Assembly (NCBI GenBank): GCA_003550305.1
Contig: QKYT01000522.1
Coordinates: 9,528 to 73,376, forward strand
Length of the DNA stretch: 63,849 nucleotides
DNA from: Glomus cerebriforme
Lineage: Eukaryota > Glomeromycota > Glomeromycetes > Glomerales > Glomeraceae
Reading direction: 5' to 3'
Shown here: piece after piece, positions 2,424-59,272 of the stretch
Numbering within the stretch: the first letter of the stretch is position 1
Layout: each line of letters opens with the position of its first letter
Program-made: the position numbers and the translations under genes
The notes under the pieces: model-generated
Database searches by the model: none
Seen by the model: only the letters and a program-made list of their open reading frames with translations
What the model was told of the DNA's origin: nothing

Positions 2424-2945
2424 AAAATAGTAATTAAATCAGGAAATTACTATCCATTTTTTATTCAGTTCTTTATTATTAATAAATCAGTTATATTATT
2501 AGTTGGATTTTAAATATTATAATACAGGAAATTATGTATTTTGTGTAAATCAATTTATTATAAAATATAATACATTTAAATTATTTAATATCATAAAATC
2601 ATCATAAAATCTTGTCAGCGGTTGAAAAATGATAATAAATAATTAGTTGTTGATGGAAATTTATAGAATTTTTTTTTTTTAAAAAAAAATGCAAAAAAAT
2701 TTTAAAATGGACGAAAATTATTTAACAAAAAGATTAAATAACAAAAATAATGTTAATTAAAGAAAATGTACCTTAAAAAAAAAATAAAATAAAATTTAAT
2801 TTTTCTCTTAATTATTAAATATAAAAAAAACTAGTATATTCGTATAGAAACGTAGAAAAATCTTTTAGAAATCCTTTTTCTTTATATTGGATAAGTCTAG
2901 TACTCCAAGGTAACACTAAATGTTTTTTTTCTCATCCGCCGATCA
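2424..2945. other. Convergent intergenic region
   Basis: This is the shared 3' flank of two converging genes. It is very AT-rich, with several AATAAA-like motifs and a T-run directly followed by an A-run at about 2669-2689. No coding or RNA signal is seen. Confidence 0.6.
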
Positions 2946-13748: not shown

Positions 13749-15346
13749 GCTTATATCTGGCCAGCGAAATAGTCATGATGTATTGAATCAATAAATGATG
13801 TATGAATATGTATCATAATTAGCTTTTTTTTTTTTTTATGTATTTTTTTTGTGATTTATATTTATGCTTATTGAGGAATTTTATAAATTTTGACTTTTTT
13901 TTGACTCTGTTGATTTATATCATTTACAAATTTGTTCATTATCAAAAGAAAAAAAAATATTCATTTTATGAATGATAATAAATAAATAAATAGTAGGTTT
14001 GTAGAAGAAAAATGTATACATTGTTTAATTTCAAAGATAAATGCTTTCGATCAATTTTTTTTTAACGCGTTAAAATGACACTTGCACATGATTGGTAGTA
14101 ATTAATTTTTTCAGATGCAAAGTTACATGACCGATAATGAAAGAACAATGTTTTTTTAAAAAAAAAAAATTTTACAATCAAATCTATAAATAGATTTTTT
14201 AATTTTGAGTTTTCCTTATAAATAAAATTCATAAATAATTAAACCTTATTTGGATTAGTGAATAATAAAAATCAAAGGGATGCAATTAAAATTCAGGAAT
14301 TACATAACAATCTATAAAAAGTAAGATATTATGCAATAATATTAAGCGGGAAAAGATTATGATGAAATTTCCATTCGAAAAAGAAATTTTATTGCCTATT
14401 TAATACTATAATAATTTGGTGGTTTGATTAGAAGTTTACATAACTGCGGTTGGAATTAACAGGAAGTCATTTTAATTTCGGGTCCCAAGCTCAATTTAAT
14501 GGCCCCGATCTCTGGGTTCACAAGATCACATGATTTTAGTTTAAACGGAGTTTTATTGGTTGCTGCATATTACTCAATATAAAAAAAAATTTTATCCAAT
14601 TGATTTGGCGTAAAGCCGTAGTACTAAACTCAGCCCACTGCCTTTTTAGGGTTTGTGCCGCTAATCTGCTTTATTATGTTGTACTTTTTATCATATAAAC
14701 TCATTTTTCCAATCGAATGGTTTTTGTAAGTGCTTGCACTTCGGCTTTACTTCATAACTTTTCCGAAGGGTTTTTTCTTCTTTCTAAAAAAAAAAAATAC
14801 AAGTGGGTCTAATTAACGAAACGAAAGGTGTTTTTTTATATATAAAAAAAAAATTTTTTCCTATTTCTTTATCTTTTTATTATATTTTTCTTGCTTACTA
14901 ACATCCTTTTTATAATAATAATACATTTTTTTATATTAATAAAAAAATTTATTATTTATTATATATTTTTTTTTTTTTTTTATTCATATATATATATATT
15001 TTCACAATTTCAAATAAATAATTTTATTCACGTATATTTTTTTAATATTTAATATTTAATATTATTAATACTTATTTCTTTCTTTCTTCATATACACTTT
15101 TGGTTTCTTTCATCTTCAAAATCTTGGTGCAAATATATTTCTTTCCTTTTTTTAAACAATATATTTACAAAAAAAAATTTTTTTTTATCAAACTATATCA
15201 TTTCCTTTTTTTTATATATATATAAATATATATATACATATTATTAGTTTGGTTAAAAAAATTTTTTTCATTTTCAATATATATATATTATATATATATA
15301 TTTTTTTTTTNAAAAAAAAAATAATTAATTAAAATAATAGTAAATA
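13749..15346. other. Long AT-rich intergenic region upstream of the ankyrin gene
   Basis: No coding sequence is supported. It is dominated by A/T runs and (AT)n stretches. A run of ten T, one N and then A (15301-15322) lies just before the start codon and marks an unresolved base or join. The 5' leader and promoter of the next gene are probably here. Confidence 0.5.
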
Positions 15347-24200: not shown

Positions 24201-27200
24201 AAAGTAATGAAGTAGATTATAAAGGATTTTTTACAGAAAATTTAGAAAATGAGTTTTCTAAACTTGATGATGATCCTATTCCTTTAAGTGGGTCAAAACA
24301 TGTAGTTTTATTGGCCGATGATAATACTGATATGAGGAATTATCTTGCTGGATTGTTAAGGAAAGAATTTACTGTTTATTGTGCATGTGATGGACACGAA
24401 GCTCTCAGAAAATTAAAAAATTTAAAAAATCCTCCTGATTTGATTCTTAGTGGTAAGATTATTATTTATATTCATATATATATATATATTACATTCTTTA
24501 ATATCCCCCCCTTTTTTTTAATATAAAATTTTTAGATATCATGATGCCTAATATGAATGGGTTTGAGTTGTTGAAAAATATTAGAAGTGATAGTTCAACT
24601 CAATTAATCCCTGTGATCCTTCTATCTGCAAAGGCTGGTGAAGAAGCTAGCGTTGAAGGTGATTTATAATAATTTTTACATGAAAATCATCATACATTCA
24701 GTATATAACAAATTAATCTTTTCTTTCCTTTACTTTTTTTTTTTGAAGGCCTGGATAAAGGCGCTGATGATTATTTAACAAAACCATTTAGCGCACGAGA
24801 ACTTATAGCGAGGGTTCGTGTAAACATTAAACTTTCTTATCTACGTCGTCAACTTTTCCAACAACAACGTCGTCAAGCCGAGACGAAACAACTCTTATTT
24901 TCGATTTCAAACAAAATCCATTCCGGATTTAATTTACAGAAAACACTATCAGCAGCAGTTGAAGAAATACATAGCATATTATCAGCTGATAGATTATTAA
25001 TAACAGCCAATGAACAATCGGAAAAAGGTGACAGTATAATTGTAGCATTCTCAGCTAATGATAAGAATGAAATTAATTTGGAAGGTCAAACTGTTAGATT
25101 CACTCCAGAAAGAATCAGATTACAAAGTGATCCAATAATTGTTGAAAAATTAATTAAGGAATTAGAAAAGAGAAAATTATTGGATGTTTCTGGTGAAGAA
25201 AATGAAAATGAAATTATTAATATTGTTAATAAAACTTTAGCTACTTTGAAAAATGAACCAAGTCAACTTTTACAAAATGATAATAATAACGAAATTTCAA
25301 CATCTACACCTTCCGGTTTATTTGATAATAAAGATTTGGAAATTGCTGTGGTACCAAATTTTTATTCAATTAATGTACAAAAATGTGTATCATTATTAGC
25401 TGTAGCTATTAAAGTTAATAAAACTATTTGGGGATGGATAATAGTACATAGACCACCAAATTATAATTGGACGGATAGTGAAAAAGAATTTTTACAGCAA
25501 ATTTCCAATCAAATAAGTTTGGCTATTACGCATGCTAAATTATTAGAAGATAAATTGAAACGGGAAGCACAAATCGAAGCTGCTAGAGCTGCGAACGAAG
25601 CTAAGAGTCAAATATTAGCTAATACTAGTCATGGTAAGTATCAAGACTAATAATTAAATGTACATATATAGTATTATTTTTCATTTTTTTTTTTTTTAAA
25701 AAAAAAAAATTTCAACATGTAGAATTAAGGACTCCGTTAGGAGCAATCATAGGAGTATTATCAGCGTTTGAAGATACAGCGTTGACAGACGATCAAAAGG
25801 ATATGATTCAAATAATGACACGTGCGTCTGACGTTGTTCTCGCTGTGGTTAATGATATTCTTGACGCGGCAAAACTGGAAGCACAAAAAATTAAACTAGT
25901 CAATCGAACTTTTGATCTATTCGATTTGGTGGAAAAGACAATTGAAATATTTGGTGAAAGAGCTGGTACTAAACAAATTGAATTAATCTTGAATTGTGAC
26001 CCAAATAGCTTACCCAAATATGTAAAATCTGATCCTGAAAGGTAAGGGTATTATAATTTTTTATAATCATTTGAAATTTTGGGAATACGATTAATAATTT
26101 TTTCTAACCTATTACTTATTAATAGATTACAACAAATATTGATGAACCTATTATCAAATTCGTAAGTATTTAGAATTTTCAATAAAATTCCACATATATT
26201 CGAGTTGTTTTTGCTAATTCAAATTTACTTTTTATTTAGTATTAAGTTCACTGAAAAAGGACAAATCGTACTTAAAATCTCAATGACTTCACACGAAGAT
26301 ATTGAAGAGTCATCTGAAACTCAAGCTCAAGGACAAAAAGTCGGGAAAAAAACCAAATTATATGTTGAATTATGTGATACTGGTATTGGGTAATGTTAAA
26401 AGTTTTTTTTTTATTTATTTATATATGATGATTTTAATTCTCGATCTATCACCCGATTTTAATATTTTTCCGTCATTTTCTTCTTTACAGAATCGAACCA
26501 GCATTTATGAAAGATATTTTTGAAAGTTTCTCACAAGGTGACGCGTCAATGACACGAAGGCAAGATGGTACAGGTCTCGGTTTATCCATATGTAAACATT
26601 TGGTGAATATTAACGGAGGAGATTTGGGAGTACGAAGTGAACTTGGAAAAGGAAGTCAATTCTGGTTCACATGGAATGTCGAACCTTTACCATTAACAGC
26701 GAATCCGGTAACCTTAATATCTTCGATTCCACAAGATTCATTAAACGAACAAACAAGTTTAATATTGTCTTTAGATGTACGATACAAAAAAGTTCTTATA
26801 ATAGATTCAGTTGAAACTGCAAGAGATTCTTTGGTGAAATTGCTTAATGATAATGTAGATAAAGTTGATGCATTCGATAGTTGTGAGAAAGGAATTAATG
26901 CAGTGAGAAAATTGAGTGAGAAGTATAATGAATCACCATATGATATAGTTTTCTTCAATGTATATATAGAAAATGCAGAATTAGTTAAAAATTCTGCATT
27001 ACAATTAAGATCAATTTGTGGACAAGATCTATCTATAGCCTTGTTGGTATTTTGGAGTGCTAAAGGAAGAGCTTTAGGAAAAGATCTTATTTATCAAATA
27101 GGAGGTCATACAGCTGCACTATGTAAACCTATCATGCAAAGAAGGTTATTAGATTGTTTGCATAATAATGATTTATTTAAACAAACGGACATTACTTCCC

Positions 27201-29899: not shown

Positions 29900-32840
29900 A
29901 TTTTTACTTTAAAAAAAATATTTACCTTTGAAAGCATATGGACAAAAACATTTGGCAACTGTATTCTCTAGCATATTTTCTCATTAGTTCTGAATGATGA
30001 TATGCATAAGTTTTTATAGCAAACTTTTTGTGTTATGTAATATATAAAAAATCTAGCTTACAGCCATATCTTTGGTAATCAATCTCATATGACTGGCCTA
30101 TGCGAACTTGAATTTACTGCTTGAAGTGTTGCAGGTAAGACAATATTTCATTCCATTCCTATACCATTTGCCATGTAATCCATAATTCCCATGTTTTCCA
30201 TCACAAATAGGATATGGTGAGCTCCATGACTGAAGTGATGTAAAATTATAATTATCAATCCCCCTAAAACTATTTTGGCATGGATTTTATAATTAATTCT
30301 GGATCAGGTTTGGTTTTGAAAGTGATAGGCCTTTTTCTTCACATTGCTCAGAAAAAGATACTTTGTTTTCTAGCTTCAAATTTATGAGAAGGCGGGCTTC
30401 TGATAATTGCTATGGCTCACATTCAGTTTCTTTTTTATATTTTTTGTATAAGTTGAAACAAATCTTATTTGTCAAAATGCTTGGTAATCCACTTAATTTG
30501 GCATGCCAATCCAGATACTCTAGGGTTAATATTTTGTTAGACTTGGACATGTTGCCTTTCTATATGATTGCAAATCAATTTAAATTGCAGTAGGTAATAG
30601 TTGACATAAATTAGCCCTGTAAAAAAAATAAAGCGTAAACAAAAATATAATATTGTAAAATAATGAGATTCAGTATGAAACTATCTCAATTTTGTGCTAT
30701 TTACATTTAATAAAATAGGATCCAGCTTTATATCTATCTTCTATACTTTCTTCATTATTATGATCTAATTTGCATAATGGGCATAATGTTTTATTAGTAA
30801 TGCTATCATAATAATCAAAATTTTCACTACTAAATTCTCTATATAAATTTGGATATTGATTCAATATCTTATTACAAAAATAGGTGTAGTCACAAGCACT
30901 AGTCAAAAACTGATCTATCTTACAGATATCTTATAAATATCGGGTATCCAAAATGCAGAAAATCTGCTATACATCGAGTACCCAATATGTATACTATAGA
31001 ATTAAAAATACAATTTATTAATTATCTCGCTATCTAGTGATTATAAAAGATGAAATATAACTCATTCAATTTGTCTCACTGAGACGTATCGAATGATACT
31101 AATTTCGCATTTCTAGGTGCGATATATATCGAGATATTGCATTTTTTGTTTGTTTTTTTACAATTTATCGAATATCTCAGCATCTATCATACCTAAAAAT
31201 GCGAAATTAGTACCATTCAATACGTCTCAGTGAGGCGAATTGAATGAGCTATATTTCATCTTTTATAATTACTGAATAGCGAGATAATTAATAAATTGTA
31301 TTTTTTAATTCTATAATATACATATTGGGTACTCGATGTATAGTAGATTTTCTGCATTTTAGGTATCTGATATTTATAAGATATCTGTAAGATATCTGTA
31401 AGATAGATCAGTTTTTGACCAGTAAAGTTGGCTTAGATTGAGATGCAGATAATACATTTGCTAATGTATTAACCTCAGTTGATTCCAAAGCTAACAGAAT
31501 ATTTATAATTTTTTCACTAGTTTTAGGATTTTTGGTTATATAATTTTGGCAGGAATTCCCAACTAAAATTTTATGAGTTGAGAAATCATCTTCCTGCTTG
31601 AAGAAATTATCTATGATCTCTTAAACTTTATCATTAGTTAACTTCAAAATAGAGTTTACATTATAAGTCAAGATATACTTAATATTGTCTATACCTAAGT
31701 TTTCAAATATATTATATATTTTTATAACTTTCTGGATTTTCCTTTGCAAGTATTTATATGATATTTCTGGAAGTTGTAAACCCATATCTTTAGATCTCTT
31801 TTTACAGAGTTATCATAGATTATTTCCTTTGCCTTTTTTTTGCTAATTTTGTCTTACCATCTTGTACAATCATACTAATCTGAATTAAGAATTCTTTTTC
31901 ATAATAATACTAGCACAAAATCTCTTCTTGTTTAACATGAATTGTGATATATTCAGCATCAGTTGCTTTATCGAATAATTGAGCTAGAGAAAGGGTCCCT
32001 CTAGAACTAAGTAATGAAACTGTAGAAGAATTTTGGCAAAGGTCTTCAGTTGAAATCACATCACAAGGAATGGCTTTATCACTCAATTGGACATTATCTT
32101 TAATACTATCATCCATTAGCTATCATTTATATAATATTTTCTGCACCTTTCTTCCTATAGCTATTTTAGCAGGAATTCCAACTGAAATTTCAGTCATAGA
32201 ATTTGATATTTCTGGTAGTGTCTTTTCAGAAAAGAAAGTATCAGATTCTTAAACTTGGTTAAGAGATACCTATTCTGCTTTTTTAAGTTTCTTCTTCTTA
32301 TTATATCATCTTATTCCATCACTAATGTTTTTTTTATCTGCCTCATCCAAGAATTTATCTATTTTTTTTTTTTCTGATGATTTGCCATTAAGGCACTTCA
32401 CAGAGTTGGCAGATATTGTTATTATCTCTGATTCTGCACCATTTCTCTACTAAGCTTGATCACTACAGATTTTAGTATGATGATAGCTTTCTTAAATTAT
32501 GAATCATTCTATGACTATCTATCTACTACCAAAAAAGTCTGTTTTATTTTTGTAAGTCTACTCTTAAGCTTTGTATTTTTTTACTCTTATTTCTCAACAT
32601 TAGTCTTAAGCTTCATAATCTCATTTTTAAGATCAAAATTTTCAATTACAAGATCACTACTTTTAATCTTAAGCTTAGTAATCTTTTCTTTATGCAAAGT
32701 AATATATTGCTTTTATACTTCAAGCTTAGCATTCTTAACCTCAAACTCAGTATTATGCTATTTAATTACTTTGAGTTTGGCATTCTCAGCCTCAAGCTTA
32801 GTGATATACGTACTATTTCAATACTTTAAGCTCAAATGAC
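29900..32840 (-). pseudogene. Decayed coiled-coil / zinc-ribbon family gene, split by a foldback element
   Basis: Reading the minus strand from ~32,840: a coiled coil (ITKLEAENAKLKV with stops), ESDTFFSEKTLPE, then from 32116 MDDSIKDNVQLSD...SLAQLFDKATDAEYITIHVKQEE, a helical segment (IYNIFENLGIDNIKYILTYN), SALESTEV-like helices, then the foldback insertion. Past it come CDYTYFCNKILNQYPNLYREF and a zinc-ribbon-like CPLCKLDH (30697-30906), LEYLDWHAKLSGLPS, SYNF/SLQSWSSPYP, and CDGKHGNYGLHGKWYRNG...YCLTCN. Many stops and shifts prove it is dead. From memory it resembles a very abundant Glomeromycotina protein family of unknown function; I could not check this. Confidence 0.55.
30902..31419. mobile_element. 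518-bp foldback MITE with ~240-bp inverted arms
   Basis: The left arm (30902 to ~31130) and the reverse complement of the right arm (~31180-31419) match at roughly 90% over about 240 bp, leaving a short loop around 31,150. The ends are GTCAAAAACTGATC. The left flank is TA (30900-30901) and the right flank CA, which on the other strand is TG, one mutation from TA. A TA duplication would suit the Tc1/mariner-like class. It lies inside the reading frame of the decayed gene at 29900-32840. Confidence 0.8.
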
Positions 32841-32879
32841 ATGATTATTAATATTTTTTATAAGATAAAAAATATTCAA

Positions 32880-34130
32880 TGTTGTATGGCAAATGTAAAA
32901 CACTTTATTAATATAGAAATAAAAATAATACAAAAGATCGGGACAAATCCATAATATATGACGTTTCTATGTTATATTGCAAATTATTAACCATGCTTAT
33001 TTTTTGAATGATATTTCTTTATTCTAGCCTTTTTCTTTGAGAGAGAATTGTCTTTCACACATGTCTTATTCTTTAATAAACCCACTATTATGCTCAACAT
33101 CTTTTTATGCTATTATGTATATTTACTGATAATCTCATCAAGCTGAACCTTGAAATCCTTTTAATAGAGGTATTAACATAAAATTTCTTTCTAATTAGCT
33201 CAATTTGCTCTATCTTCAGCATCAATAACTTATCATATAATTGAGCTAAATATTATGAGACTTCATCAATGCTATCATAGGTAACTTTTCTGGAACAGAC
33301 TGTCTCAGAAACTTTAGTTACATTATTATAATTTATAGAGGATGAATTATCTGATTCTAAAAGGAAATTAAATAATTTATGCTTTAATTCATTTTCTTTT
33401 TTCTTATATAATCTGCTATCTCAATAATTATCTTTTGATTATAGATCATAAGATCAGAGATAGAACACTTGAGCAAACCTAAATCGATATTTTCACTGAT
33501 TTCAGATGTTAAATTATTATATAGTTAAATAACTGAGTTGAGCTCTTAAGGCATTTTCTCTTCAGGATGTATTAGAAAGAACTCTTGGATTTGAAATTTT
33601 TTTTTCTAATTTCTCTACCTAATTCTATCACTAACCTTTTTTTTATACATCTCGTTCAAGAAAGTATCTATCTTCATTTTCTTTGATGGCTTAGAGCTGG
33701 TAGGTGAAACTTCTAATATCAGTTCTTTGGGTAATGATGTATCAGAATTAAAGTTAGATGAACTATTGTTAGGAAAATTAGTTATTATAATAGTATTATC
33801 ATTTTGCATCAGCCTGTAATTTTTCTTTAATTTTGCAATTCTGATTTTAAGTTCAGCATTCTTAGATTCGAGTTTAGTGATAACTCCATTATCTTTTTCT
33901 AGCTTCTCAATTCTGATCTTAAGCTTAATATTGTCCTTCATAATCTGCTTTAGATGCTCAACATCTCTAGCTTTAAGTTCAGCTTTCTTGGTCTTAATCT
34001 TAGTATTCTCAGTCTCTAAATCAATAATATCCTATCTCATTACTTCAAGTTTAAATAGATTAACTTCATTAACTAATATGATCAATAATAATTTTATATA
34101 TAAAAGAAATTGTTTAATATTTTAAAAATT
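32880..34130 (-). pseudogene. Second decayed copy of the coiled-coil family
   Basis: The longest open piece is 33615-33941, encoding a heptad-rich coiled coil (KLKIRIEKLEKDNGVITKLE, NAELKIRIAKLKK), a Ser/Asn linker (NFPNNSSSNFNSD) and SKPSKKMKIDTFLNEMYKKK. Coding remnants extend upstream to ~34,130 (LFKLEVMR) and downstream (SYLAQLYDKL near 33,240), interrupted by stops. The order of blocks matches the copy ending at 32,840, so these are tandem paralogues on the same strand. Function unknown. Confidence 0.55.
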
Positions 34131-34259
34131 ACCAAAAAATTTCTGGAATGAGCCATCTCAAAAAAATGCCAAGAAAATTTTTTATTAATACATATGAAAA
34201 ATAAATACAAAGGTTTAGGATATAGCTTAGAATATATATAACAATTTTTTCTATGCTAA

Positions 34260-35429
34260 TGTCCTATATATTATTTCTTAACATATTTTTTTATCCTTGC
34301 TCTCTTAACATCAGGAGAGTCTTTAACCTTTATCCTATCCCTTAATAAACCTACAATTACTTTCATAACTTTTTTTACATTTTAATAAAATTTTCTATTA
34401 TCATTCAAATATCTTTAGTAAGAATAATATAATAGTTAGCTTTCAAGCAATAGATCCTTTCTTGTATATACATAAGGAAGTACCAATCTGAGACTAGAAT
34501 AAAGAAAAAAGAATATGAGATTAGTAATAGGAAAAGTATTAGGAAAAAAAATGCCATACTAGTAGTAATGATTCTATATAGGTAGTTGAACTCATTATCA
34601 AAAGCTTTAAATGCCTTTCTTTTTCTTATATTTGTGAAGTAGAAACTTTTAAGTTGCATCACGTTTTGCATGAAACTCATCACTAAATCCTTTTGTTTAT
34701 CTTTGATTATAGCTATCAGTTCCTCATTTACAGTATCTATAATTTTCTTAATAGCAAGATTAATATGACCTGTTGTTTCTCCACCTTCAATCTCAAGTTA
34801 AGAGTTTAGAGTGATCTTTTTCTTAGTGTCTTTTGGTAATAAAGATAAATGCATATAATATTTCCTTAATATAGTTATATAGAAATAATGTATAACCTTA
34901 TTTTTTCTCATTGTTAGACCCAAGTTACATATTTTGCATTTTATCTCATTAATACAATACCCCAACTCTTCATCCTTAACATTTATTTTTTCTATTTCAG
35001 ATATAAATAGGAAAATACATGTTATATCATTACCACTAACTTCAATATCTTCTTCAAGTTTGTTTTAGTCTTGTATGATAAGAAGATCCTTAATTTTTTC
35101 TTCTTACACTTCTTAGTAAAGTTCACAAGTCTGGTCATAGGATCCAATTTCATTCCATATCATTCAAGCTCTTCTTTAGTTATCTTGAGAAAGTCACAAC
35201 CTATTATTTTTTGCTTACGAATAATTTTTAAGTCATTTTCATTAAGACCTAAGTTCTTTTTCTTTCGTAAATATTTGATAAGAGCCTCCGTTTTATATTT
35301 TTTAATTTCATCTACCAACAAGATCATCTCATTTTTAGCAACAATAATAGAGATGGAAGCTAAAGTATAAGGTATACTAGTTTTAGACATAATATTACAT
35401 TTTGGTATTGTATCATTACATATAACCAC
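34260..35429 (-). pseudogene. Decayed SAM-domain / nuclease-like family gene
   Basis: An intact N-terminal piece (35160-35429) starts MVICNDTIPKCNIMSKTSIPY (or MSKTSIPYTLAS) and holds a SAM-like helix set (LIKYLRKK, LNENDLKIIRKQKI, DFLKITKEELE). After a frame change come MTRLVNFTKKCKKKKL and IEGGETTGHINLAIKKI. The C-terminal piece (34405-34683) has QNVMQLKSFYFTNIRKRKAF, NEFNYLYRIITTS, a ~20-residue hydrophobic insertion, then SDWYFLMYIQE. From memory this resembles an expanded Glomeromycotina family with a PD-(D/E)XK-like core; the candidate catalytic Asp and EGK positions read INLAIK and IKDK here, so activity would be lost. Inference only. Confidence 0.5.
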
Positions 35430-35539
35430 TTCTTTTGTATGTTCGATAAAATAATAATACTTTATTTATGAAATAAAATGTTACTAGAATTCAGTTTATA
35501 ATAAATAAAATTGCAAATATTTTGCTACATGATATAAAT

Positions 35540-35910
35540 AAAAAAATACTATTTATTCTTAGGTTTTATGAGAATGTGAATTTGTTGATTTCGTAGGTTA
35601 TCTTCCTTAAGATCATTAACATAAAGGTTAAAACTAAGGAAAAGAACTTGGTAACCTTGATTTGCTAATAGAGTTTTAATAGCAAATTCAAGAATAGTAA
35701 CTTTATCTTTCTTGCAAGATAAAATTATAAAAGTTTTTTCATCCTATTCATCTTTGAGTCAACATTTAAAATTGATAATACTTATTTTATTTTTCTAAAT
35801 ACAAAACCTATAGTAAGAAATTTTTGCTCATATGTAAATGTAACTTCTGCTATATACATACCTTGTTTTTGTATTATTTTACAAGAAATATTTTTGTGAG
35901 AAAGTTAGCT
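35540..35910 (-). pseudogene. Coding remnant, unknown family
   Basis: The minus strand between about 35,900 and 35,550 gives MYIAEVTFTYEQKFLTIGFV and, after shifts, LFLSLVLTFMLM-like and NKFTFS segments. It looks like an eroded member of another repeat family beside the hAT element. Not recognised. Confidence 0.3.
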
Positions 35911-36659
35911 GAACTTTTACATACCACTCATGCTTTATATCTCACTGAAAAGAAAGAAAGGAGATAAAAATAATGATTAGCATTATCATATGATACCAAG
36001 AGTTCTATGAAAGTATATGTAAATAAAATATTATATTTCTTTATATGTAGATCTATATAAACTTAGTTTTATGCCTAGTGATTTCAGAATTGTGAATAGG
36101 GCTCTGATTGGTTCAATTCAGTTCAGTATTTGCTAAAACTGATACTGAACTGAAATTATCAGTATTAATATCAGTAATTTACTGAAACATTCAGTTTAGT
36201 TTTTGACCAAACTGATACCGGTGATAAATACTGAAAACTAAACTGATTTACCAATTTTTTTTGTAAAAAACTTGTATTAATTAGACCTNNGAATAAGTTT
36301 GGATCAATTGANTTGAATNAAAGTCNAAAGATCTTTAATTTGTTACAGCACACCTCGATATAATGAAGTTAGTGTCCGAACTGATCAGTCTTTCGTTATA
36401 AGAATAATTTCATTGCACAATACCAAATATGTNATCACATTTTATATAAACAGATTTATAAAAATTGTACGATTACTTTTTATAAATAAATATAAATTGA
36501 TATTTAAGCATTTTTAATTCAAAATTGGAATTAATATCAATAAGAAACAATTTATAAAATATAAATTTGTATATATTTTAAAAGTTTTCTTTATTTAAAA
36601 AAAATGGATTATTATTTAATGTCCTGTATTACAGGATGAACAATATTTATAATTGCAAA

Positions 36660-37150
36660 CTACTGGACATTATTGCTTAATAGTTGGCAAGTTATGGTTG
36701 CGTCTTCGGATGTGTCTCGTTACTAAAAAAAGTAAATATACTTAATATAAATCTGAAAAATTAATTCATTCATTTTAATAATTACCCGATCATTCCCAGA
36801 ATCTAGTTCTGAAGATACAATAATATTTTTCTCCAGTATATGACCACCTCCTCCCTCTTCTCGTGCCATTACACCAGTTACAAAAATCCTAAAAGATATT
36901 AATTATATTGTTATTAAGTTATATTTATCTTCATATTATTATTTATTATTTACTTATCCCATAATTTCTAACTAAATTTTTCCATTTCTGCTCGCATTGG
37001 CGAGCGGTATAAGTTCTAGTATATCTTCTATTTATTTTTCAGGCAACGTTTTTTCAGAACTTCATTTTATTGCCTCTAAACCTTGTATAATATTCATCAT
37101 TCCTTCTCCTCTTTTTTGAGATCAAAAAATCCGTTTTGGGTCTTTCCAGA
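36660..37150 (-). pseudogene. Myb/SANT-like DNA-binding exons inside the hAT element
   Basis: On the minus strand, a segment near 37,045-36,970 reads RRYTRTYTARQCEQKWKNL followed by VRNYG. This is the third-helix region of Myb/SANT-like (trihelix/MADF-type) domains, where a Trp packs the core. An intron-like gap follows, then VTGVMAREEGGGGHILEKN...SELDSGND. It is on the same strand as the transposase but after its stop, so it is a second gene or a captured fragment. Upstream pieces contain a stop. Confidence 0.45.
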
Positions 37151-37911
37151 TGATTCTTGTTGTTATTTTTATTTTACAATTATTGAAAAAAAATATGTAA
37201 GAAAATTTTTAAATGTTAAAAGTTTAAAATACGAAAATTAAATAATGATAAAATACTTCCCTTTATAAAAAAATTTAATTAATTAAAATACTGATTTGAT
37301 ATTTTAGGAAAACTTAGATCAATACAGTAAATATATTATTGAAATACTTAATACTGTACAATAAGAACTCTTTGTGTTATTTTTGTATTTCTTAAAAATA
37401 TAAAGACAAGTAATTATATAAATTAGGCATTGTATTATTTATAGAATTAGCAAAATTTAATAATTACAGTAAATCGGACAATTACGGTCATAATAACAAA
37501 ACATCATCTTGGTGATAAATATAAATCATTTTAAAAATATTCGACAAAAATGGATAAGTAATTTCAATACAAATTCAACACAAATTTGTTATAAATTATA
37601 AATAACAATATGAATTGTCAACACTATTTCAACACTATTTTAATACACGAATATAGGAACACAGAGGGGTGTTATTTAGTCAATGTATTATATTAAATTA
37701 TATTATGTAATTATTAATGAGTAGTTTGTCATACAGAAATAAATAGCTTCTTTTCTAAGTTTTTTAATTCTTCTTTATTCAAATTAAAAACTTCTTATAA
37801 TGCAATATCAAATATTTATTATTTCAAAAAAAAAGCTTGTGCTAAAAAAAATTACATGCAAGAATTTAAATTTTTTTTTTTTAACTTGTATATTAATGAA
37901 AAATGATTAAT

Positions 37912-40568
37912 CTAAAAAACCTGAGCAGTACTAATGTTTAAACACATAATAGAACATATTGTTTTAGGAGCAAGACTTGCTCTATCAGGAGTAATAATAT
38001 CAGCCACACTTGAAAAAATTCTTTCAGCAGGTGCACTTGTTGCTATTTAATAAGAATATTTTTTTTATATTAATAAATATCATTAAAAGTAATTTAAAAA
38101 TAAAAAGATAAAAACCTGAAACTCTGAGGTAATCTCTAGCCATATATGACAAGTGTAAGTATTCTTTCTCATGTCGCTATTTATAAAAAAAATTGTTANA
38201 AATAATTAATAAAATAAATATTCTTCAAATAATAAAACTTACTTTTCACCATTTAAAACATCAGTAAGAGGCTGTGCACGATCAGCTTTTAGATAACGAT
38301 TTAATTTGCTTACAGGTTCTATACATTATTGTTTCAAAAAATGAGAAATTAGGTATTTATCAGATAAATTATATTCTATGTAATTATTTTGAATTTCTTG
38401 CAGTGCATATAACATATTATAAATTTAAATTTGTTAATATAGTATGAGATAAAGAAAGTTATAATATAATTTAAATAAAACGAATTAAAAAATTTGCATG
38501 CTCATACATCTTTCTTTATTTTATCAATCTAATAATTCTCCCACTTATTATCATTCATGTATTCTAACTTAATAAACTATTAAAAAAAATTTAGCAAAAT
38601 TAATATTAAACTAAATTAATATATTTGATATATAAATGTATTATAACTTACTTAGAGAAGTAGAATATAAAGTTATATCAGTTTTATTATAATATTCTTG
38701 GANCTTATTAATNNCCTTNTTTGCTGCTTCCTATTAAAAAAAAGGANNTTAATTATAATTAACATAAAAAATATAAATAAAATTTCAATTTACTTTTCCA
38801 TCTTCAAATCGATCTGGAGTATCGCAAAAATCTTCTAATTTATTTATTAAAATATTATATATTGGAATTATATATGAAAGCGTTAGATAGACTTCACTAC
38901 AAATTTGTTTGGTTGCTTTAGCAAAACACTGAAAAATATATATATATTATATATTTAACACTATATATATATATATGTATATGTAAATATATAATATTAA
39001 ATTAAACCTTTAATAATTCCTTTATTTTTGACGGTCCCATTCCTCTTCACTTATTGCAAAAGTATGAAGGCTCAAGTCACTATTACTTAATGTATTAAGA
39101 GGCTAAAAAATAAAATTATTAATAAATTAATTAAAATAAAATTAAAAATTAAAATAATAAACTTACTTCTTTGAGAATTCTTGCTCTATTAAGCATATCG
39201 TGAGTTGAATTCCACCTCGTGTGTATGTCTAGTATTACATTTAAATTGAAAATATCTGCAGCTTTATATTGAGCTAGAAATTTTTCTTGTTATTGAGGGG
39301 ATGCTTTTATTTTTTTGATGAGAGTATGAAGCTAAAAACAATATAATTAACAAATTTATTAATTATTAATTAAATAAAGGAAAAGAAAATAAAATAAAAC
39401 AAAATAAAATAAAAAAAATCTACTTTAATAAGACCATTATTTTTGTTTAATAATTCATTACCTTCTATAGCTTTAAACGTAACAAGAACTTGTTATACTG
39501 CTAAATTCATTACATGGGCAAAACAGCACATATATTTATCTTCACTATTAAAATTAATAGATTTTTCAGCTAATTTGGCTTGAACAGCCTGTAGGAATGT
39601 AATGTTATTACATTATCTGTAGTTACAGTAAGGATCTATATAGAAAACTTTTTTTAACTTTATTTTTGTGTTTTAAATTATCACTATTTATAAAACTAAC
39701 CTTTGATTCAATACTATAACTTCTTAAACTTTTTAAAAAAACTTCCTTAATATTAGCTCCTGAATGTGGACCATCAAGNTTAATAAAATCTAGAAGAAAA
39801 CTCTTTAATTCCCATTTATCTGTGATCAAATAGACTGTTATACCTAAAAATGATATATTATTTGAAGATNTCCAGCCATCAATNGTAAAAGAAATTTTGC
39901 TAGACATATTCTATAAAATTAAAATAATAATTAGTAGAATTCAAATAAAAATATTATTAGAAAAAATACAAATATATAACCTGTAAAATAGAACGAATTT
40001 TCTTTTGACTTTCTTCAAAAATTTTTATTGTATCATTTTTAATTGTGTCTGCAGATGGTATAAATGTATTCTTATATAAAAAACAAATCATTTTCCTAAA
40101 ATCTTCAGATTCTACGCATATGAAAGGAAGATCATATTTTATGATCCATTTAATAATAAACTTTCTAAAAGTTTCTTTATTATATGCCTATTAATAAAAA
40201 TATATAAAAAACATATTTAATATCACAAATAATAAATGTTTTATCATTATACTTATGACTGGCTCTGCTGAATTATTTATTATTTTGTGAAATGTGAATT
40301 GTCTTTGTTGACTTTTTTCTTTCGTTAGATTATGTTTATTTTTTAGGTNANCTGTNAAACCNGAANTNCTNCCTTTGTTACAAATTATTAAAGCTTTACA
40401 GTAATTGCAACATGCTTTTTTTATTACATTATCAAATACAAAATGAGCCCAAGCTTAACTACGTTTAGTATTACTTCTTGTATTTGTTTTTTCAACATTT
40501 ATATCTGGTTTTGCTTTATATTTATTTTGGTTATTGTCCACTGCCTTTCCAGTTTGATTATATGTCAT
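37912..40568 (-). pseudogene. hAT transposase, several exons, inactivated
   Basis: Minus-strand blocks in order: MTYNQTGKAVDNNQNKYK, then (after an in-frame stop) AWAHFVFDNVIKKACCNYCK, a BED-type zinc finger; TIDGW-region ISF-IDGW-SSNNISFLGI and LDGPHSGANIKE (39623-39907); TRWNSTHDMLNRARILKE (about 39,170-39,260); PLNTLSNSDLSLHTF then a shifted IKELLK; ICSEVYLTLSYIIPIYNILI (38,805-38,935); and the C-terminal dimerisation block ARDYLRVS joined across an intron to ATSAPAERIFSSVADIITPD, ending at 37912. Introns have normal GT..AG borders. At least two stops and one shift make it non-functional as assembled. Confidence 0.8.
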
Positions 40569-40892
40569 TAATGTTTATTATTGGATATTAATTAAAATTA
40601 AGATTAAAATTAAAGGAAAAAAAAGGAAGTATGAAAAAAAATGAAATTAAAAAAAAATATTGATAAGATCGATCTAGATTGCTAATCTATATATATATAT
40701 AGTATATAAAAATTTTGGTAAATCAGTTCGATAAATCACAAAACTGATACTGATACCTAAATTACCAAAACTGATCAGTATATTTACTGAAGGATTCAGT
40801 TCAGTAAATCGCAAAACTGATACCAATCTGATACTGAAACTGATCAGTTCAGTTCAATAATTACCATTACCGATCAGAGCCCTAACTATGAA

Positions 40893-41160
40893 TGGGCAAA
40901 AGAAGTAGCAATGGCTCTTCTTTTGTAGGTACTAATAACCTTTATCCATCTATAGAGGAGGAGCTTTTCACAAAATTGATTAAAAAAAATTAAAATTAAA
41001 AATGAAAAAAAAAATGAAAAAAGGCTCATAATATATTTTTTTGTATTACATGTATCATATAATACGAGCTGCAGCCGCAGTTTATTTTAGTTAATCATTT
41101 ATTTAATTCTTAAATCAGTAACTTTTAATCGCCATTTGAATTTTATTCTAGAAATTGAAA
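40893..41160. other. Spacer between hAT element and intron-like array
   Basis: Short AT-rich stretch without a gene. It contains an acceptor-like TCTTCTTTTGTAG (40,917-40,929), and its last bases (GAAATTGAAAAACG) run into the first GTAAGT of the array, resembling the end of an exon-like core. Confidence 0.5.
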
Positions 41161-43420
41161 AACGGTAAGTTTTTTTGTGAAACTTACCATTTTTTTCAAT
41201 TTTTTTTAAAGAAACGTTTCTAATATTTCTTCTTTTTTCTTTTGTAGGTTTCTCAGTTTTTAGTCTGATACTAGAAAGTAGGAACTGGTAAATTTCTTTG
41301 CAAAACTTACCATTTTTTTTTGTTTTTTTTTAGAAATGCTTATTGACATTTCTTTTTTTTTTGTAGGTTCTCTGAGCTTTTCAGTCCAGACTGGGAAGAA
41401 AAAATGGTAAGTTTATTTATGAAATTTATTATTTTTTTCATTTTTTTTAAAAAAATGTTTTTAATGTTTCTTCTTTTCTTTTCTTGTAGGTTCTCTGAGT
41501 TCTTTAGTCTGGAATGGGAAGGGAAATCAGTAAGTTTCTTTGTGAAACTTATCATTTTTTTTTGTTTTTTTTAGAAACACTTATTAACATTTTTTTTCTT
41601 GTAGGTTTTCTGAGCTCTTCAGTCTGAAATGAAAAGGAGAACGGTAAGTTTCTTCGTGAAACTTACCATTTTTTTTTGTTTTTTTTTTTTAGAAATGCTT
41701 ATTAACATTTCTTCTTTTCTTTTCTTATAGGTTCTCTGTACTTTCAGTTTGATACTGGAATTGGAAATAGTAAGTTTCTCAAGTTTTTTTGAGAAACTTA
41801 CCATATTTTTTTTGATTTTCTTTTATTAGAAACATTTTTAACACTTTCTTTCTTTTTCTTTTATAGGTTCTCTTAGCTTTTGGATTAGTACATGAAATTG
41901 GGAAATAATAAGTTTCTTCACAAAACTTGCCATTTTTTTTCTTTTTTTTTAGAAACGTTTTCTAACAGTTTTTTTTCTTTTCTTGTAGACTCTTCTTTGA
42001 TTCGGGTACTTGGATTTAGAAAACGGTAAGTTTTGTAACGAAATTTATCATTCTTTTTTTTTTGTTTTTTTTAAATAGAAACATTTTTAACATTTCTTCT
42101 TTTTTCTTATAGGTTCTTGGATTTCATTTTGGATATGAAAATTTCTTTGCGAAATTTTTATCTGAAGCATTTACTTAAAGAATCATTAGTAAAAATAGTA
42201 CTAACATTTCTTTTTTTTCATTTTTTTGTAAGATCAGATTTTTTTTTGATTTCAGCTTGGAAATCTGGTAAGTTTTGAAGTTGAAACTTTAATACTTTCT
42301 TTTCAGAATGTAAGTTTCATAACAAAACTTCATTTTTTTTATTTTTTTTTAAGAAACGTTCTAACTAAACATTTCTTTTTTTTTTTGTAGGTTTGCTAAA
42401 AAACTGAAACGTAAGTTTCGTAATGTTCATTTCGTTACAAAACTTCATTTTTTTTTATTTTTTTCTTTAAGAAATGTTCTAATTGAACGTTTCTTCTTTT
42501 TTTGTAGATTCAGCTCTGAGAATTTGGAATCAGAAAAGAAACGTAAGTTTTGTAACAAATTATTTCATTGCAAACTTCATTTTTTCATTTTTTCTTTCTT
42601 TATTAGAAATATTCTAATCAACTGTTTCTTCTTTTTTTGTAGTTTGCTTCTGTGAATTAGGATTGGAAACATAAGTTTCGTAATATTTATTTTATTACAA
42701 ACTTTGTTTTTCATTTTTTTTCTTTGTATAGAAACGTTTTAACTAAATATTTCTTTTCTTTTATAGATTCAGCTTTGAAAACAGAAATGAAAACGTAAGT
42801 TTCGTAATGTTTATTTCGTTATAAACTTCATTTTTTATTTTTTTTTGTATAAAAACATTCTAACTGAACGTTTATTTTATTTTGTAGATTCAACTCTGGA
42901 AACAAAAATGAAAATGTAAGTTTTGTAATGTTTGTTTCATTACAAGCTTTATTTTTCATTTTTTTCTTTGTATAGAAATATTTTAACTGAATATTTCTTC
43001 TTTTCTTTTGTAGATTTAGCTCTGAAAACAGAAATGGAAATATAAGTTTTGTAACGTTCATTTCATTACAAGCTTCATTTTTTATTTTTTTTTCTTTGTA
43101 TAGAAATGTTTTAACTGAATGTTTCTCTTTTTTTGTGGTTTACTCCTGGACTTGGGAACCAGAATGTAAGTTTTGTAACAAATGTTTTATTATGAAACTT
43201 CATTTTTTCATTTTTTTCTTTGTTAGATCGTTCTAACTAAATGTTTTTCTTTTTTTTTGTTGATTCAGTTTGTTTTTTAAAATTTGGATTTTTGGAAATT
43301 AGAAACATAAGTTTCGCAACTTAGCTGCAAACCTTAGTTTATTTATTCTTTTATAAGAAATGTTAATTAATGTTTCTTTTTACTTTTTTGTAAGTTCTGG
43401 ATTTGGGTATTAGAATTGAA
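41161..43420 (+). repeat. Tandem array of ~19 intron-like units (~120 bp each)
   Basis: Donor-like GTAAGT/ATAAGT sites recur at 41165, 41288, 41407, 41530, 41644, 41770, 41908, 42026, 42268, 42310, 42411, 42543, 42671, 42795, 42916, 43042, 43166 and 43307, plus a degenerate one near 42137. Most are followed by a T-rich stretch, GAAACGTT-like sequence, a TAAC/CTAAC branch-like site, a C/T tract and TAG. Between a TAG and the next donor lies a short core: 40, 40, 40, 39, 39, 41 and 37 nt in the first half, about 28 nt in most of the second. Cores share GTTCTCTGAGCTCTTCAGTC, later ATTCAGCTCTGAAAACAGAA. Spacing is not a multiple of three, so it does not encode a repeat protein on either strand. 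Whether it is transcribed or spliced is unknown. Confidence 0.9.
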
Positions 43421-43424
43421 TAGT

Positions 43425-43829
43425 TAGTTAATATAGTATAATTAGTATATCTAGGAAGAATTTGTAATTTAGTACATTTTTAATAAATGAATATAGTTTA
43501 AATATAATAAAATCAATTTGATAAGTTTAACAATACTTTTATTTATTAAATGTAGTTAATATATACTAAAATTTGTATTATTATATATATTTTTCAATAT
43601 TTTTATGTGTTTTTCAACTAATAATATGCATTTTTCAACTAACCTAGTATTGTTATACATATTTTTAAACTGCCATTATTTTACTATATATTGTTATACA
43701 TCTAAAAAATTGTTGCGCAATATGTTTTTAATCACGTTAGTTGACAAAAGGTTTATTACGTAACACTTTTTTGGTGTTGAACAACATATGGCATATGTTT
43801 ACACTTTATATGTCTGTTCAAAACTTTCT
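43425..43829. other. AT-rich spacer between array and dispersed repeat
   Basis: No gene or RNA signal seen. It may belong to the same repeat as the array and the dispersed segment that follows. Confidence 0.4.
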
Positions 43830-44400
43830 GATGAATAGTCTTCAGTTTACCAAGTTTCTTTGTAAGTCAGATTCATGATAACTTTCAGTCATTTACATTT
43901 TTTTCTAATTTGATATTTGAAAGGCCATTTGATATTCTAAAGCACTTTCTATAAACATAAGATGGAAGAGTAGGACTTGTGACTATTTTTGGTAGATTTA
44001 GAAGTGGGTCTAATGCAAAGTTTTTTTGGAAGTAAAGCAATTTTTCACAGAATTAACACATGGGCTTGGATATAATAAGGAGAGTTTTTTTTGGCATTTA
44101 AGTTTAGTAAATAATTTTCTTTATTGAAATTTAATATTCATTTTTATTGGATCTCCTTTTTCAACTATTTGCTACTGAATTGGACATAAATTGCTTGTTG
44201 TGTAGAAATTAAAAACATAAATTCCTTGGCTGCAAATTTGGTTTTAGTAGTCCATTAGGTGGAAAATGGTGAATACTAAAAAAATTAATTGATAGTTGAT
44301 TACCCATTGGCCATTGGTAATTGATTCTCTTGTTGTTACATTCCTTTATTTTGTTTCACAGTTAGTGATCCTTAATTTAGGTGACATAATATGTTGTTAT
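43830..44400 (+). repeat. Dispersed repeat, copy 1 (~550 bp)
   Basis: This segment matches 61650-62180 along its whole length with scattered substitutions and small indels. Shared blocks in order: TTACCAAGTTT, CTTTCAGTCAT, GATATTCTAAAG or GGTATTCTAAAG, TTTTTCACAGA, CCTTGGCTGCAAATTT or TCTTGGCTGCAGATTT, TTCTCTTGTTGT, and TTTTGTTTCACAG followed by GTGATC. No protein frame is conserved between the copies. The TTTCACAG is acceptor-like. Confidence 0.8.
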
Positions 44401-45900
44401 TGAAAAAAAAGTACAATATATTTAAACAAATGTATTAATTAAATCATAACTTTATTAAACTTAATGGGTATTTAAAAGAAGAATTAATTGATTAATATAT
44501 TATAAATCCCAAAATATCTACCTTAAAAAATTATAGCAAAAATACTATATAAAATAAAAAATTTAATATTTATATAGATAGTTTACTAAAAATAATATTA
44601 TAGTACTTTTTACTATTTTTAAAATCAAGTTAATTTGTTAACTTCATGCTAAATTTGATCAAATTTGCTAAAATTGAAATATAATCTATATAAATTCAAA
44701 TTTAATAAATCAATTAAGGAATTATTAGATTTAGATATATATTGAATACATTGTAGTTTTTTTAGTTATAAATATATTTTATCAAATAAAAGTTATGTGC
44801 TAGTATATCCAGATAAAAAAAAACTACCAGTATTTTCTTATAAGTATTGGCAATATTGGCTAATAATCATAAGAGAATACTGGTATTCATCTGAAATTCT
44901 GAATATATCAACACATACCATATTGATAAATGTACAAAGGATTTAAAAAAAAACATCTAAATAATGTAATTATGATTTATTAGATAGTGAAAAATCATAT
45001 TTATAATAATTATGGGAATCAAAGAATCCGTTATACTGTAAATGTCAATTGTGTTAATTGACATAATTGGCATCAAAGATCGTCATATAAGTCGCATTTC
45101 AATATTATCAATTAACCATGTGATAAATAAGGTAGAACATCGGAATCTATTTTTAGAAGTGAGGGGCTGAAACAATCACTACTTCTTGTTGTCATTGCAT
45201 GAATAGTACTTCATTCTAGTGGACCGTTATTTTTGTTGTTGATCAATAACTGGATATACTTTTATTAATTATTAAATTATTAAATGGGGGGTAAGATTAA
45301 TGAATGTTTGAAAAAAAAACCTTTTTAGAATAGATTTTAGAACAGCATGCAAGATTATAAAAAAATCTAAAACGTAATGGCTTTCTTGTTTATCATTATT
45401 TACTGTATGATTGTTTTTTGCCAAATTAGCAAATATAATAAAATAACAAACTCCAATTGTACTACTGTATGAGGCGTTTTGGAAATTGGCTTGGCGATCG
45501 ACCCGTATCACCCTATATTTTGTGCGAAGAGGTTTTCAATATTCAATTCAGTAATAATGATTGATACATGATTTAATTCCCCAGTTCATTGATTTTACGC
45601 TGAAAAAAAAACCATCTGAAATGGTCATATTTCGTAACTAATTAACACTGATATAGTAAATGCTTAAGCACAAGCACAGAATGTCACACATAGTTCATTT
45701 TTCATTTTTCTTATGCTTTTTTTTTTAGGGATTTTTTTCATAATTCCCATAACAAACATTGTGTACAACACAGTAGTGACAAACACATTCATGATAAATA
45801 AAATTTTATATTGATCAAATCGTTTCTTCATACATAAAAACCCTTTGCCCAGTCCGTTCGATCATTCCAACTTCTAACATTCTTGTACACTTTGTTTTAA
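44401..45900. other. AT-rich region between repeat island and the GRAM gene
   Basis: Contains the foldback at about 44798-44925. A 79-codon minus-strand frame at 45272-45511 (MIRVDRQANFQNASYSSTIG...) has unusual composition for random sequence but no recognised domain; it may be a repeat-family fragment. The last ~350 bp are the presumed promoter of the next gene. Confidence 0.4.
44798..44925. repeat. Small foldback element
   Basis: CCAGTATTTTCTTATAAG pairs with CATAAGAGAATACTGG around a ~20-nt loop. The pairing continues outward (GTGCTAGTATATCC...AGAT against ATCTG...GAATATATCAACAC) for a total span of about 125 bp. It is probably a short MITE remnant. Confidence 0.55.
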
Positions 45901-56124: not shown

Positions 56125-57449
56125 TTAAAGAGATTCTTCAAGACTAGGGAAAGAGAGAAGTCTGCTAGTATAAATGGCCTCGGTATGAATTTTTATTTCC
56201 CCGGATGAATTTAATTGTTGTACAGATTTAGATTCTTCTATTTCTTTCATTAATCTACGAGATAATTTACCTTCATCTTCATAAATAAAACAACATCTGA
56301 TCATACTAAAAATTTCTATAGCAGTAATTCTCTTTTTAGGATCTGGATCCCAACATCTTAATAACAAATTGACGATAGATTTAGGAATGTGATCAGGAAT
56401 AATGGGTCGAGCACCATTACAAATATCCAAAGCAAGTTGTAAATCATGAGGTCTATCATGAAAAGGTGGATACCCAGTTACAATCTCATAAATTATTCCA
56501 CCAAAAGCATAAATATTAGAGGCTTTACTATATGAATGGTCTCTTAAAACTTCTGGTGCCATATAAGGTAACACCCCGTAGATTTCAGAAATTTTGGACT
56601 TAAGAAAACAAGTCCCCTTATTAACAGGATGATAAACTCCCAAATCACTTATAATTAAAAAGCAATTAATGCGAACATTATTTTTACATAATATGTTTCC
56701 AATATGAAAATCTTTATGAATGATTTCTTTTTCATGAAGTCTACAAAGGTGATGTCCAACTTGTTTTAGAATCTCAATCTTTTCAGGCCAATCAATAGAT
56801 TTTGATTTTTTCAATTGATTTCTCAAATTTCCATCTTCTACATATTCAAGGACCATGGCAAAATTCTTTGAGATTGGATCTTTGGTGAAACCATAACATT
56901 TTACAACGTATGTGAGACCACATTGTAAATTCAAATGCAACTATAAAAAATAAATAATAAATAAATAACCTTTATTAAAATATAATAATTAGAAAATCAA
57001 AAATTAATTACCTCTTCCAAAAAATCAGAAGAAATATTTTGTGAATCTTCAAGAACTTTTAAAGCAACTTTGGTCTTTCCAAATCTTTTCCATTGTTTCT
57101 GTTCAAAACTCCAACCTTGAATTAAACCGTCCAACCATATAGCTGAATAAATTTTAGAGAAACCTCCTTGCGTTATGTATTTGATATTAGATAATTTATC
57201 ATAAGGTATCCATTCTATCAGATCGCCAGATTTTTTTGCCTTAATTTGTTGAAATTTAATAAATTCATCCACTTCTTTATTACCACTAGTCCAACAGGAG
57301 AATTCTTTTTGGAGATGAACAGGAGAGCAATTATTACACCAAGTGCTAGAATGTTCCGAAGGATATATTTTGTTATCCTTCCTTCTAAATTTGCAATCTT
57401 TACAATTGTGGGACTTGTATTTTATCTTAATGCTACCAAATCTTACCAT
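56125..57449 (-). CDS. Protein kinase (tyrosine-kinase-like) with Cys-rich N-terminus
   Basis: Two exons, 57449-57012 and 56940-56125, give 417 aa. The N-terminus has two CxxC pairs (NCKDCKF near 16 and WCNNCSP near 39), a likely zinc ribbon, then SCWTSGNKEVDEFIKFQQ. The kinase domain (~85-360) has a glycine loop ITQGGFSKIYSAIW, the lysine in VALKVLED, catalytic loop IIHKDFHIGNIL (HKD in place of HRD), SDLG in place of DFG, and MAPEVL. The Asp, Asn and Lys needed for phosphotransfer are present, so it is probably active. The ribbon-WTSGN-kinase layout is one I recall from expanded kinases of arbuscular mycorrhizal fungi. The partner and pathway are unknown. Five extra residues (VRINC) sit between the catalytic loop and SDLG. 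Confidence 0.88.
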
Positions 57450-59272
57450 ATTTACGATGATTATTTATTTTTATTTTATTTTATTTTATTTTATTTTATT
57501 TTTTTTTTTTGAATTTATCAAAAATTCAAAAAGAATTTAAAATTATAGATAAGAACACAGAGATATCCGTAATAATATGTAACCTATCCAAAGGGCAGGA
57601 AAAAAGAGCGAAGGGAAAGGATAAGGAAATAAATAATATATATATATAATATATATATCGTAAAAGATTATTATGAGAATGAAACAAAAAAAAAAATATG
57701 AAATGAAATAAATGAAATAATGACAGAAAGGATGTTGAAAAGATAAAAAGTATGTTTAAATAAGTGTTAAAAGGAAGTAAAATACAATATGTACATATAT
57801 GTTTAAAAATATTTTTTTTTAATCAAAAATTTCCATGAGAGATATTTCTTGCATTAAATATGAAACATCGGAAATTATCACGGTCGAACTAAATAAATAT
57901 TTCTCCATTTAACTAATCTATAACAGAATGAAATTCTTTGTGGTAATTAAATGATAATCAATAATATTTAAAAACGCGATAACAGATAAACCGAATAACT
58001 TTAAATAATATATAAAGTGACACTTTCTTATCAATAGGAAAAGGAATCTATCTTGGAAATGTTATAATACAGTAGAATGAACGCCGTACAACGGGATGAA
58101 CCGCCTATGCATATTTATATAAACATATGTAACAGGTTTTTTAGTATTATTTGACTTAACTACAGGCGTTTTTACACAATAATTAAATTTTGCTCTTTTG
58201 GATGATTTTTAAATTGTTGTAAATCTGTTGTGGAGAAAAAAAAAGGATAAAATAGGTAAAAGATTTTAATTTCTGTCGTATCAGTTCATCCTCGTATGGA
58301 ATTACTTTTTAAAGAAATAAAGAATAAAGGAATATGATTGGATATTTGAATACCACGTTGCCTTGCATACGATTTTTTTCATAATTTTTAATTAAATCGA
58401 TGACATGATATTGTAATTTCTAATATATTAAATTAATGAATTATATATTAATATAAAGAAATCCCGCAATATTTTTCATTAATATATGACTATATATCAA
58501 TCAAGTTAGATTGATTACAAGGTTACAAGGTAGTTTGGAAGTTTCTGATTACAAATAATTAAAATAAAGTATTATCTAGATAAGATAATGTAAGCGACCT
58601 AATTGGGTGACAACCTGTTTCTTTTTTAGAGATGGAAGATACGAAAAAAAAATATCCTGCATATCATCCGCGGAATTTGCAAGTGAATCGTTTCTCCACG
58701 TGATTTTACTACGGCAAGAGATTGATGGGGGGAATTCTCATAATTCCTATAAAAGAGAGAATTCATTTGATGTTTTCAAAAAAAGATTTTCACTGCAAAA
58801 TATACTTACATATACCGTATAATGTATACTACATGTAAGTTATTATTTAATGATGATCCCCGAAAAACTTAATCCTCTTTTAAATTTTTTTTAATATCAA
58901 GCCGTTCAGAAAAAAAAAGTCCGTTTCTCTTTTTTTTTTATTTTTACTTAACGTGACATTGTTATACCGCAGCAAACAAAGAAAAATATAAATAGCTGAC
59001 CACTTATCTTTCTCCGTTGGGCCCAAGTGTTCATTATTCTGCTCAGTTCTTACATAATTGATTATACGCCACACACCAAAATTAGTAAGTAGAACTATCA
59101 AAAAGGGTCCCATTGTAGGTTGTATTATCTAAAAATTAAACTTTAGTTTTTTTTTTCCTCAAAAAAAAATTTTTTTTTGTTTAAAAAAAAATATTCTTTC
59201 AAAAAAAAACCATCCACTTGAATTCGTCACACCAAAATTATTCACATTGAAGTGAAACAACCAACTTTATCT
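57450..59272. promoter_or_regulatory. Long divergent intergenic region, kinase / F-box
   Basis: About 1.8 kb. It starts with (TTTTA)n repeats (about 57,465-57,505), then AT-rich sequence without a gene. CACGTG lies at 58697-58702. The minus frame at 58880-59113 has no recognisable content. Confidence 0.4.

Follow-up and report, generated by a model that had tools for sequence, protein, structure and literature searches.

Micro-exon gene families encode secreted proteins in other organisms, and transposons are known to turn into introns through single insertions. The closest described systems among the papers surveyed are the following. Tetris of Drosophila virilis is a DNA transposon linked to satellite or internal tandem repeats (PMC4079207), introners are intron-making transposable elements with transposon ends (PMC9860276), and the symmetrical stwintrons and related introns of the Hypoxylaceae are found one at a time in genes, have terminal inverted repeats of 45-55 nt and lack flanking duplications (PMC8469720). 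A literature search limited to titles and the beginnings of abstracts returned no transposon with a tandem array of folded introns as its interior.

The locus described here lies in a window of 63,849 nucleotides from Glomus cerebriforme (contig QKYT01000522.1), which is the whole stretch of DNA that was analysed and to which all positions refer. It shares with Tetris (PMC4079207) a transposon with an internal tandem array of changeable length, but the repeat unit here consists of the whole order of a spliceosomal intron together with a short core. As with introners, transposon ends in the form of terminal inverted repeats (TIRs) and target duplications are linked to introns, but an introner adds one intron per gene insertion (PMC9860276), whereas here many introns stand in tandem within a single element, and the ends of that element are not splice sites. 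The Hypoxylaceae stwintrons (PMC8469720) are likewise fungal introns that have multiplied, show inverted symmetry and have predicted folds; in the present case, however, there are two short hairpins per intron, the introns are in tandem and the element is flanked by 2-bp target duplications.

The first-pass annotation placed a tandem array of intron-like units at 41161..43420. The array is indeed there, but the feature is larger and belongs to an element covering 40885-43833; the array is the interior of a dispersed TIR DNA transposon and not a lone locus. When the array was used as a query against its own genome (112.5 Mb), scoring of 40 of the 328 candidates gave at least 80 matching pieces, the array itself included, and the best other copy among the scored candidates had 84% identity over positions 1-2187 of the 2260 of the query. 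The suggestion that the genome be searched with a unit for other arrays proved productive, as dispersed arrays were found and 24 of them were profiled. The right boundary is sharp, with 42 of 44 non-self matches to 43380-45000 stopping at window positions 43810-43850, most of them at 43832-43835, and with the other two being small pieces. On the left, matches to other copies start at 40885, and complete copies, whose left end was reached in 13 of those fetched, extend about 450-500 nt further left than the window copy.

Inverted repeats at both ends, as they define TIR transposons, are seen in the 15-bp ends of one copy, L013, and in the genome counts. The left end of L013 reads CATCAGGAAGTTTTG, the inverted repeat of the right end, which in the window is CAAAACTTTCTGATG (43819..43833, plus strand), one mismatch away from the common form. 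Allowing at most one mismatch, the 15-bp TIR has 196 matches in the genome versus 6 for the reversed control. A target site duplication of fixed length (2 bp) is also evident, in that identical 2-bp flanks of varied sequence occur in 10 of the 12 copies with both ends found, among 26 copies examined; L021 and L011, of which L011 has a weak left end, are the two without such flanks, and L013, which by eye has TG on both sides, was missed by the script and is outside the 12 counted. The element's left 490 nt have no match over 43 nt within window positions 30001-45000, and the window copy (40885..43833, plus strand) is therefore a cut one, with its left end of about 480 nt missing.

Neither a transposase nor an autonomous relative was found in L029 or in L031-L037, of which L031, L032 and L036 are gapped and L034 and L037 end at a contig end. 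The inverted ends of L029 are 10.3 kb apart, but this is an array copy with an interruption of about 6 kb (about 343-6386), whose frames, read by eye, we take to be Helitron-like. L031, L032 and L036 have gaps in their interiors, a contig end truncates L034, which is otherwise a normal copy, L037 stops at a contig end, and no more than the first 666 nt of the element remain in L035. By eye, both arms of L013 contain many short TGTTGA/TCAACA palindromes, which resemble the subterminal repeats that occur in some DNA transposons. The left flank of the window copy (40000-40884) is a different dispersed repeat, with 47 non-self matches, none of them beyond window position 40895. Its end has inverted similarity to sequence near 36.1 kb, and this repeat, perhaps starting at about 36.1 kb, may be another TIR element. 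Elsewhere in the window there is a 162-nt tandem repeat of three copies within an open frame (1482-1966), and host genes at 11261-13606, 15344-17776, 23777-24523, 56128-56940 and 59222-61066 encode lysine methyltransferase, ankyrin, histidine kinase ATPase, protein kinase and F-box-like domains.

Within the element, the array proper (41165..43392, plus strand) is a head-to-tail repeat of a unit of some 120 nt (period about 114-141 nt), with about 18 exon-intron-like units that, as read by eye, lie side by side; a stwintron would have one intron lodged in a splice element of another. It begins with the intron-like part of unit 1 (41165..41247, plus strand), followed by a 40-nt exon-like core (41248..41287, plus strand). 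A script found 18 donor-like sites alternating with 14 acceptor-like sites on the plus strand, and recovered all 14 of the TAG positions previously listed, exactly as given. The earlier count of about 19 complete units was somewhat high, since the repeated intron-like units number about 18 and some 13-14 of them have all signals; similarly, the cores are short as described, but the 13 that could be measured span 20-41 nt and not 28-41 nt. The ordered signals on the plus strand were confirmed using a strict pattern of donor, branch-like site, pyrimidines and TAG, of which there are 13 full sets in 41161-43420 on the plus strand versus none on the minus strand, compared with a mean of 0.066 and a maximum of 2 in 500 dinucleotide shuffles. 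The remaining window outside the array has one such set on the plus strand and four on the minus strand. The array units thus have the ordered donor, branch site and acceptor of a U2-type intron at normal spacing. There are also irregularities, as no donor lies within 80 nt of the acceptor at 42112, the unit after that acceptor has no GTAAGT by eye, and the last three units (donors 43042, 43166 and 43307) by eye have no TAG at the expected place. Downstream lie the last exon-like stretch and the right arm of the element (43393..43833, plus strand), with an AATAAA-like signal near 43482. A minus-strand match to mir-244 (Rfam) scored 26.3 bits against a gathering score of 62.5 and was read as a chance hairpin.

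A unit profile search gave, after filtering, 344 units in the 24 arrays, with 7 to 19 units each; a contig end or the limit of the fetched stretch truncates some of these arrays. Introns of about 80 nt alternate with cores of 20-44 nt, the median intron length being 79 nt among the 195 of 344 units that satisfy a strict donor-acceptor pattern. A rough scan of the rest of the window for frame-joining introns yielded nine weak candidates of 61-166 nt in the window's genes, of which six have TAG at the end and two have GTAAGT at the start, and the array introns are like these in length. Unit types 1, 5-10 and 16 were each recognised in between 14 and all 24 of the arrays and in the same order, type 10 being the least certain assignment, and the number of units of types 2-4 and 11-15 varies between arrays. 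Because the order of types is the same across the 24 arrays, arrays with already diverged units predate the spread of the copies. The junction between the unit-5 core and the unit-6 intron has 75 matches in the genome versus none in the reversed control, some of them about 250 nt apart on one contig, a spacing that fits unequal exchange.

The intron-like parts are predicted to fold. When 80 of them were picked at random and folded alone, the mean z was -3.3 and 70% were below -2. Five introns from the window were folded as well: z is -5.1 to -5.7 for three of them, and the other two fold weakly (-0.8 and -1.8). The intron-like part at 41644..41730 (plus strand, z -5.1) illustrates the predicted arrangement, with the donor in the stem of a first hairpin (41644-41666) and a branch-like TAAC in the loop of a second (41691-41712). 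In a unit of type 6 (41770..41866, plus strand, z -5.7) the donor stem is 14 bp and the second predicted hairpin is away from the branch site, and in a B-type unit (42411..42507, plus strand, z -5.5) the branch-like site is in the loop of an 11-bp hairpin; another B-type intron-like part (42795..42887, plus strand) has a weak fold (z -0.8). Across the 195 units, local pairing of the donor is predicted in 68% at position 1, 40% at position 2 and 91-95% at positions 3-8. A first hairpin with the donor in its stem is predicted in seven of eight unit-type consensuses, type 16 being without it. The second hairpin is predicted to hold the branch-like site in its loop in types 9, 10 and 16; in types 1, 5, 7 and 8 the site falls among the last pairs of that hairpin, and type 6 has its second predicted hairpin elsewhere. 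A script located a suitably spaced branch motif in 103 of the 195 units, with its A unpaired in 70. The arms of the main stem are nearly the same in all unit types; what distinguishes the types is extra sequence added in matching fashion to both arms.

The first-pass annotation argued that splice signals were kept while the rest diverged, and between the unit types this holds. All eight consensuses have GTAAGT, TTGTAG and YTAAC with its A 23-25 nt from the end, and the intervening cores have a mean identity of 58% (range 43-78%, z against shuffled sequences 0.7-7.2). The borders of the units were set with the same strings that were later counted as conserved, and the eight-of-eight conservation is therefore support but not proof. 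Moreover, the hairpin arms AAACTT and AGAAA, which are not splice signals, likewise occur in all eight unit types, and so splicing is not the sole possible preserver of the motifs, contrary to what had been supposed. This conservation of arms alongside the splice signals is not required by splicing alone and counts against the explanation that we prefer, in which each repeat looks like a small folded intron that was once spliceable.

An alternative is that these are arrays of palindromes used either as DNA, to which a transposase or some other protein would bind, or as hairpins, their likeness to introns being left over from one captured intron. Both hairpin motifs are present in all eight unit types, and the central stretch of the array (42113..42267, plus strand), which is kept in all 24 aligned copies but no longer has a canonical donor in any of them, retains by eye a hairpin-like inverted repeat. 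The first bases of the donor point the other way. Among the 259 of 344 units that fit the pattern used for this count, 83 are of the B type, and in 79 of these the outer pairing partner is CA, so that their donor GT is unpaired; nonetheless it reads GT in 63, AT in 19 and TT in one, compared with GT in 143 and AT in 28 of the 176 A-type units. AT at the start of the donor would be the expected product of CpG decay there. The retention of an unpaired GT in B-type units favours splicing as one constraint, and it is joined by the constant 23-25 nt between the branch A and the end and by TTGTAG, which lies outside both palindromes and is kept in all eight types when the adjacent cores are not. We regard the palindromes-only explanation as unlikely.

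Substitutions in present-day copies were counted on extended units against rates expected by context from the arms of the element. At the donor, G1 has changed in 23 of 161 cells versus 36.0 expected (ratio 0.64) and G5 in 7 of 161 versus 12.5 (0.56). The acceptor G has changed in 32 of 160 cells versus 11.9 expected, and this ratio of 2.7 is the highest observed. The right arm of the first stem is slow (11 of 962 cells versus 19.0 expected, 0.58), the left arm of the second stem has changed in 83 of 963 cells versus 58.2 expected, the cores have changed in 505 of 4655 versus 344.9 (1.46), and the remaining columns, at a ratio of 1.98, show alignment noise. Since the acceptor G is not protected, most copies seem not to be kept spliceable now. 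That donor and stem positions change less than expected, and the acceptor does not, counts in favour of arrays of palindromes, and the slow donor and arm positions may reflect either real constraint or sequence context; AAGTTT and AAACTT represent one context read on the two strands, and low mutability is therefore possible. The same data bear on the suggestion that the array is a decoy that ties up the spliceosome, for which the many strong donors in a short stretch might speak, with nothing direct in its favour. Most donors are predicted to be in stems and acceptors are decaying in present copies, and we consider a decoy function extremely improbable.

Rows of very short exon-like pieces are what the locus has in common with micro-exon gene families, but here the reading frame is not kept. 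Core lengths are mixed (28, 29, 30, 35, 37, 39, 40, 41 and 44 nt), among the 20 arrays measured the length of the unit-6 core is 40 nt in 8 and 41 nt in the other 12, and the number of cores between the fixed units 1 and 5 ranges from none to several among arrays. Hence an open frame is not maintained across the short exons, and a protein gene, as one reading of the micro-exon locus raised in the first-pass annotation, is not borne out. A protein-coding micro-exon gene carried by the transposon might still be argued from the G+C content of the cores (34% versus 24% for the array) and from copy L013, in which by eye the first cores join into one open frame. The frame test, for which L033 was dropped from the 24 arrays as having too few exons, found a longest spliced frame with p of 0.05 or less against shuffled exons in 4 of 23 arrays (L009, L011, L018 and L025), which is slightly above chance and speaks for a coding gene, and against shuffled order in 3 of 23, bearing in mind that the copies are related, so that the p-values are not independent. 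The window array gave p of 0.71 in what is an imperfect test, as the exon finder missed some cores. The shuffle test and the frame-breaking changes in the cores did not bear out a gene based on the L013 frame. Our assessment is that the cores probably do not code for protein, although some doubt persists, and that a coding gene is improbable.

It was also considered that a unit might spread by itself into genes in the manner of an introner. Two unit motif patterns have 186 and 188 matches in the genome and none in controls. Of 20 mostly isolated-looking hits picked by eye among the matches listed, 17 are arrays of three or more units and three are single-unit fragments (L038, L040 and L044), L040 and L044 being the same sequence. 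Solo copies, for which the first-pass annotation had suggested a search inside genes, therefore exist as fragments among the 20 picked, but none is a precise intron, and copies as single introns in many genes were not seen among these matches. The fragments include core sequence and their ends do not fall at splice sites, and they thus do not behave as introners. We judge unit-by-unit spread into genes, for which these fragments are the evidence, to be very improbable. The CpGs of L038 (373-524, reverse strand numbering) and of L040/L044 are intact, though most copies have lost theirs. A search with two junction patterns at up to three mismatches found no intronless, that is spliced, genomic copies, versus 75 matches for the unspliced control junction; a DNA transposon has no RNA step, however, and the absence of such copies therefore says little about splicing.

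We propose, as the probable explanation based on these sequence comparisons, that the element is a non-autonomous TIR transposon whose interior has grown by tandem duplication of a once-spliceable exon-intron module. One such module would have been duplicated in tandem to form the interior, the number of units would keep shifting by unequal exchange, and while the family was active the modules would have retained their U2-type splice signals. Movement would have depended upon a transposase supplied from elsewhere. We infer transcription and splicing of the element as further steps, in which its transcript would have been spliced many times to give a short, probably non-coding RNA, and the simplest reason for the signals having been kept would be that transcripts running into the element were spliced. 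The dispersed copies, which number in the dozens, would now be decaying. A bolder version of this proposal is that the transposon family carries as cargo a many-times-spliced non-coding RNA gene, with about 18 self-folding introns in 2.2 kb, in which donor and branch site in matched hairpins would control splicing and which would be kept because splicing helps the element. Such help may consist of escaping silencing, sparing host transcripts or loading the spliceosome. We put this version forward tentatively and consider it rather unlikely.

A transposon thus seems to have multiplied an intron within itself, with the splice signals kept while the intervening pieces diverged. Gene finders may call false many-exon genes at these elements. 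If copies are transcribed, the family would serve as a natural test case for the splicing of densely packed, folded introns in a fungus, and it would be a possible source of new introns.
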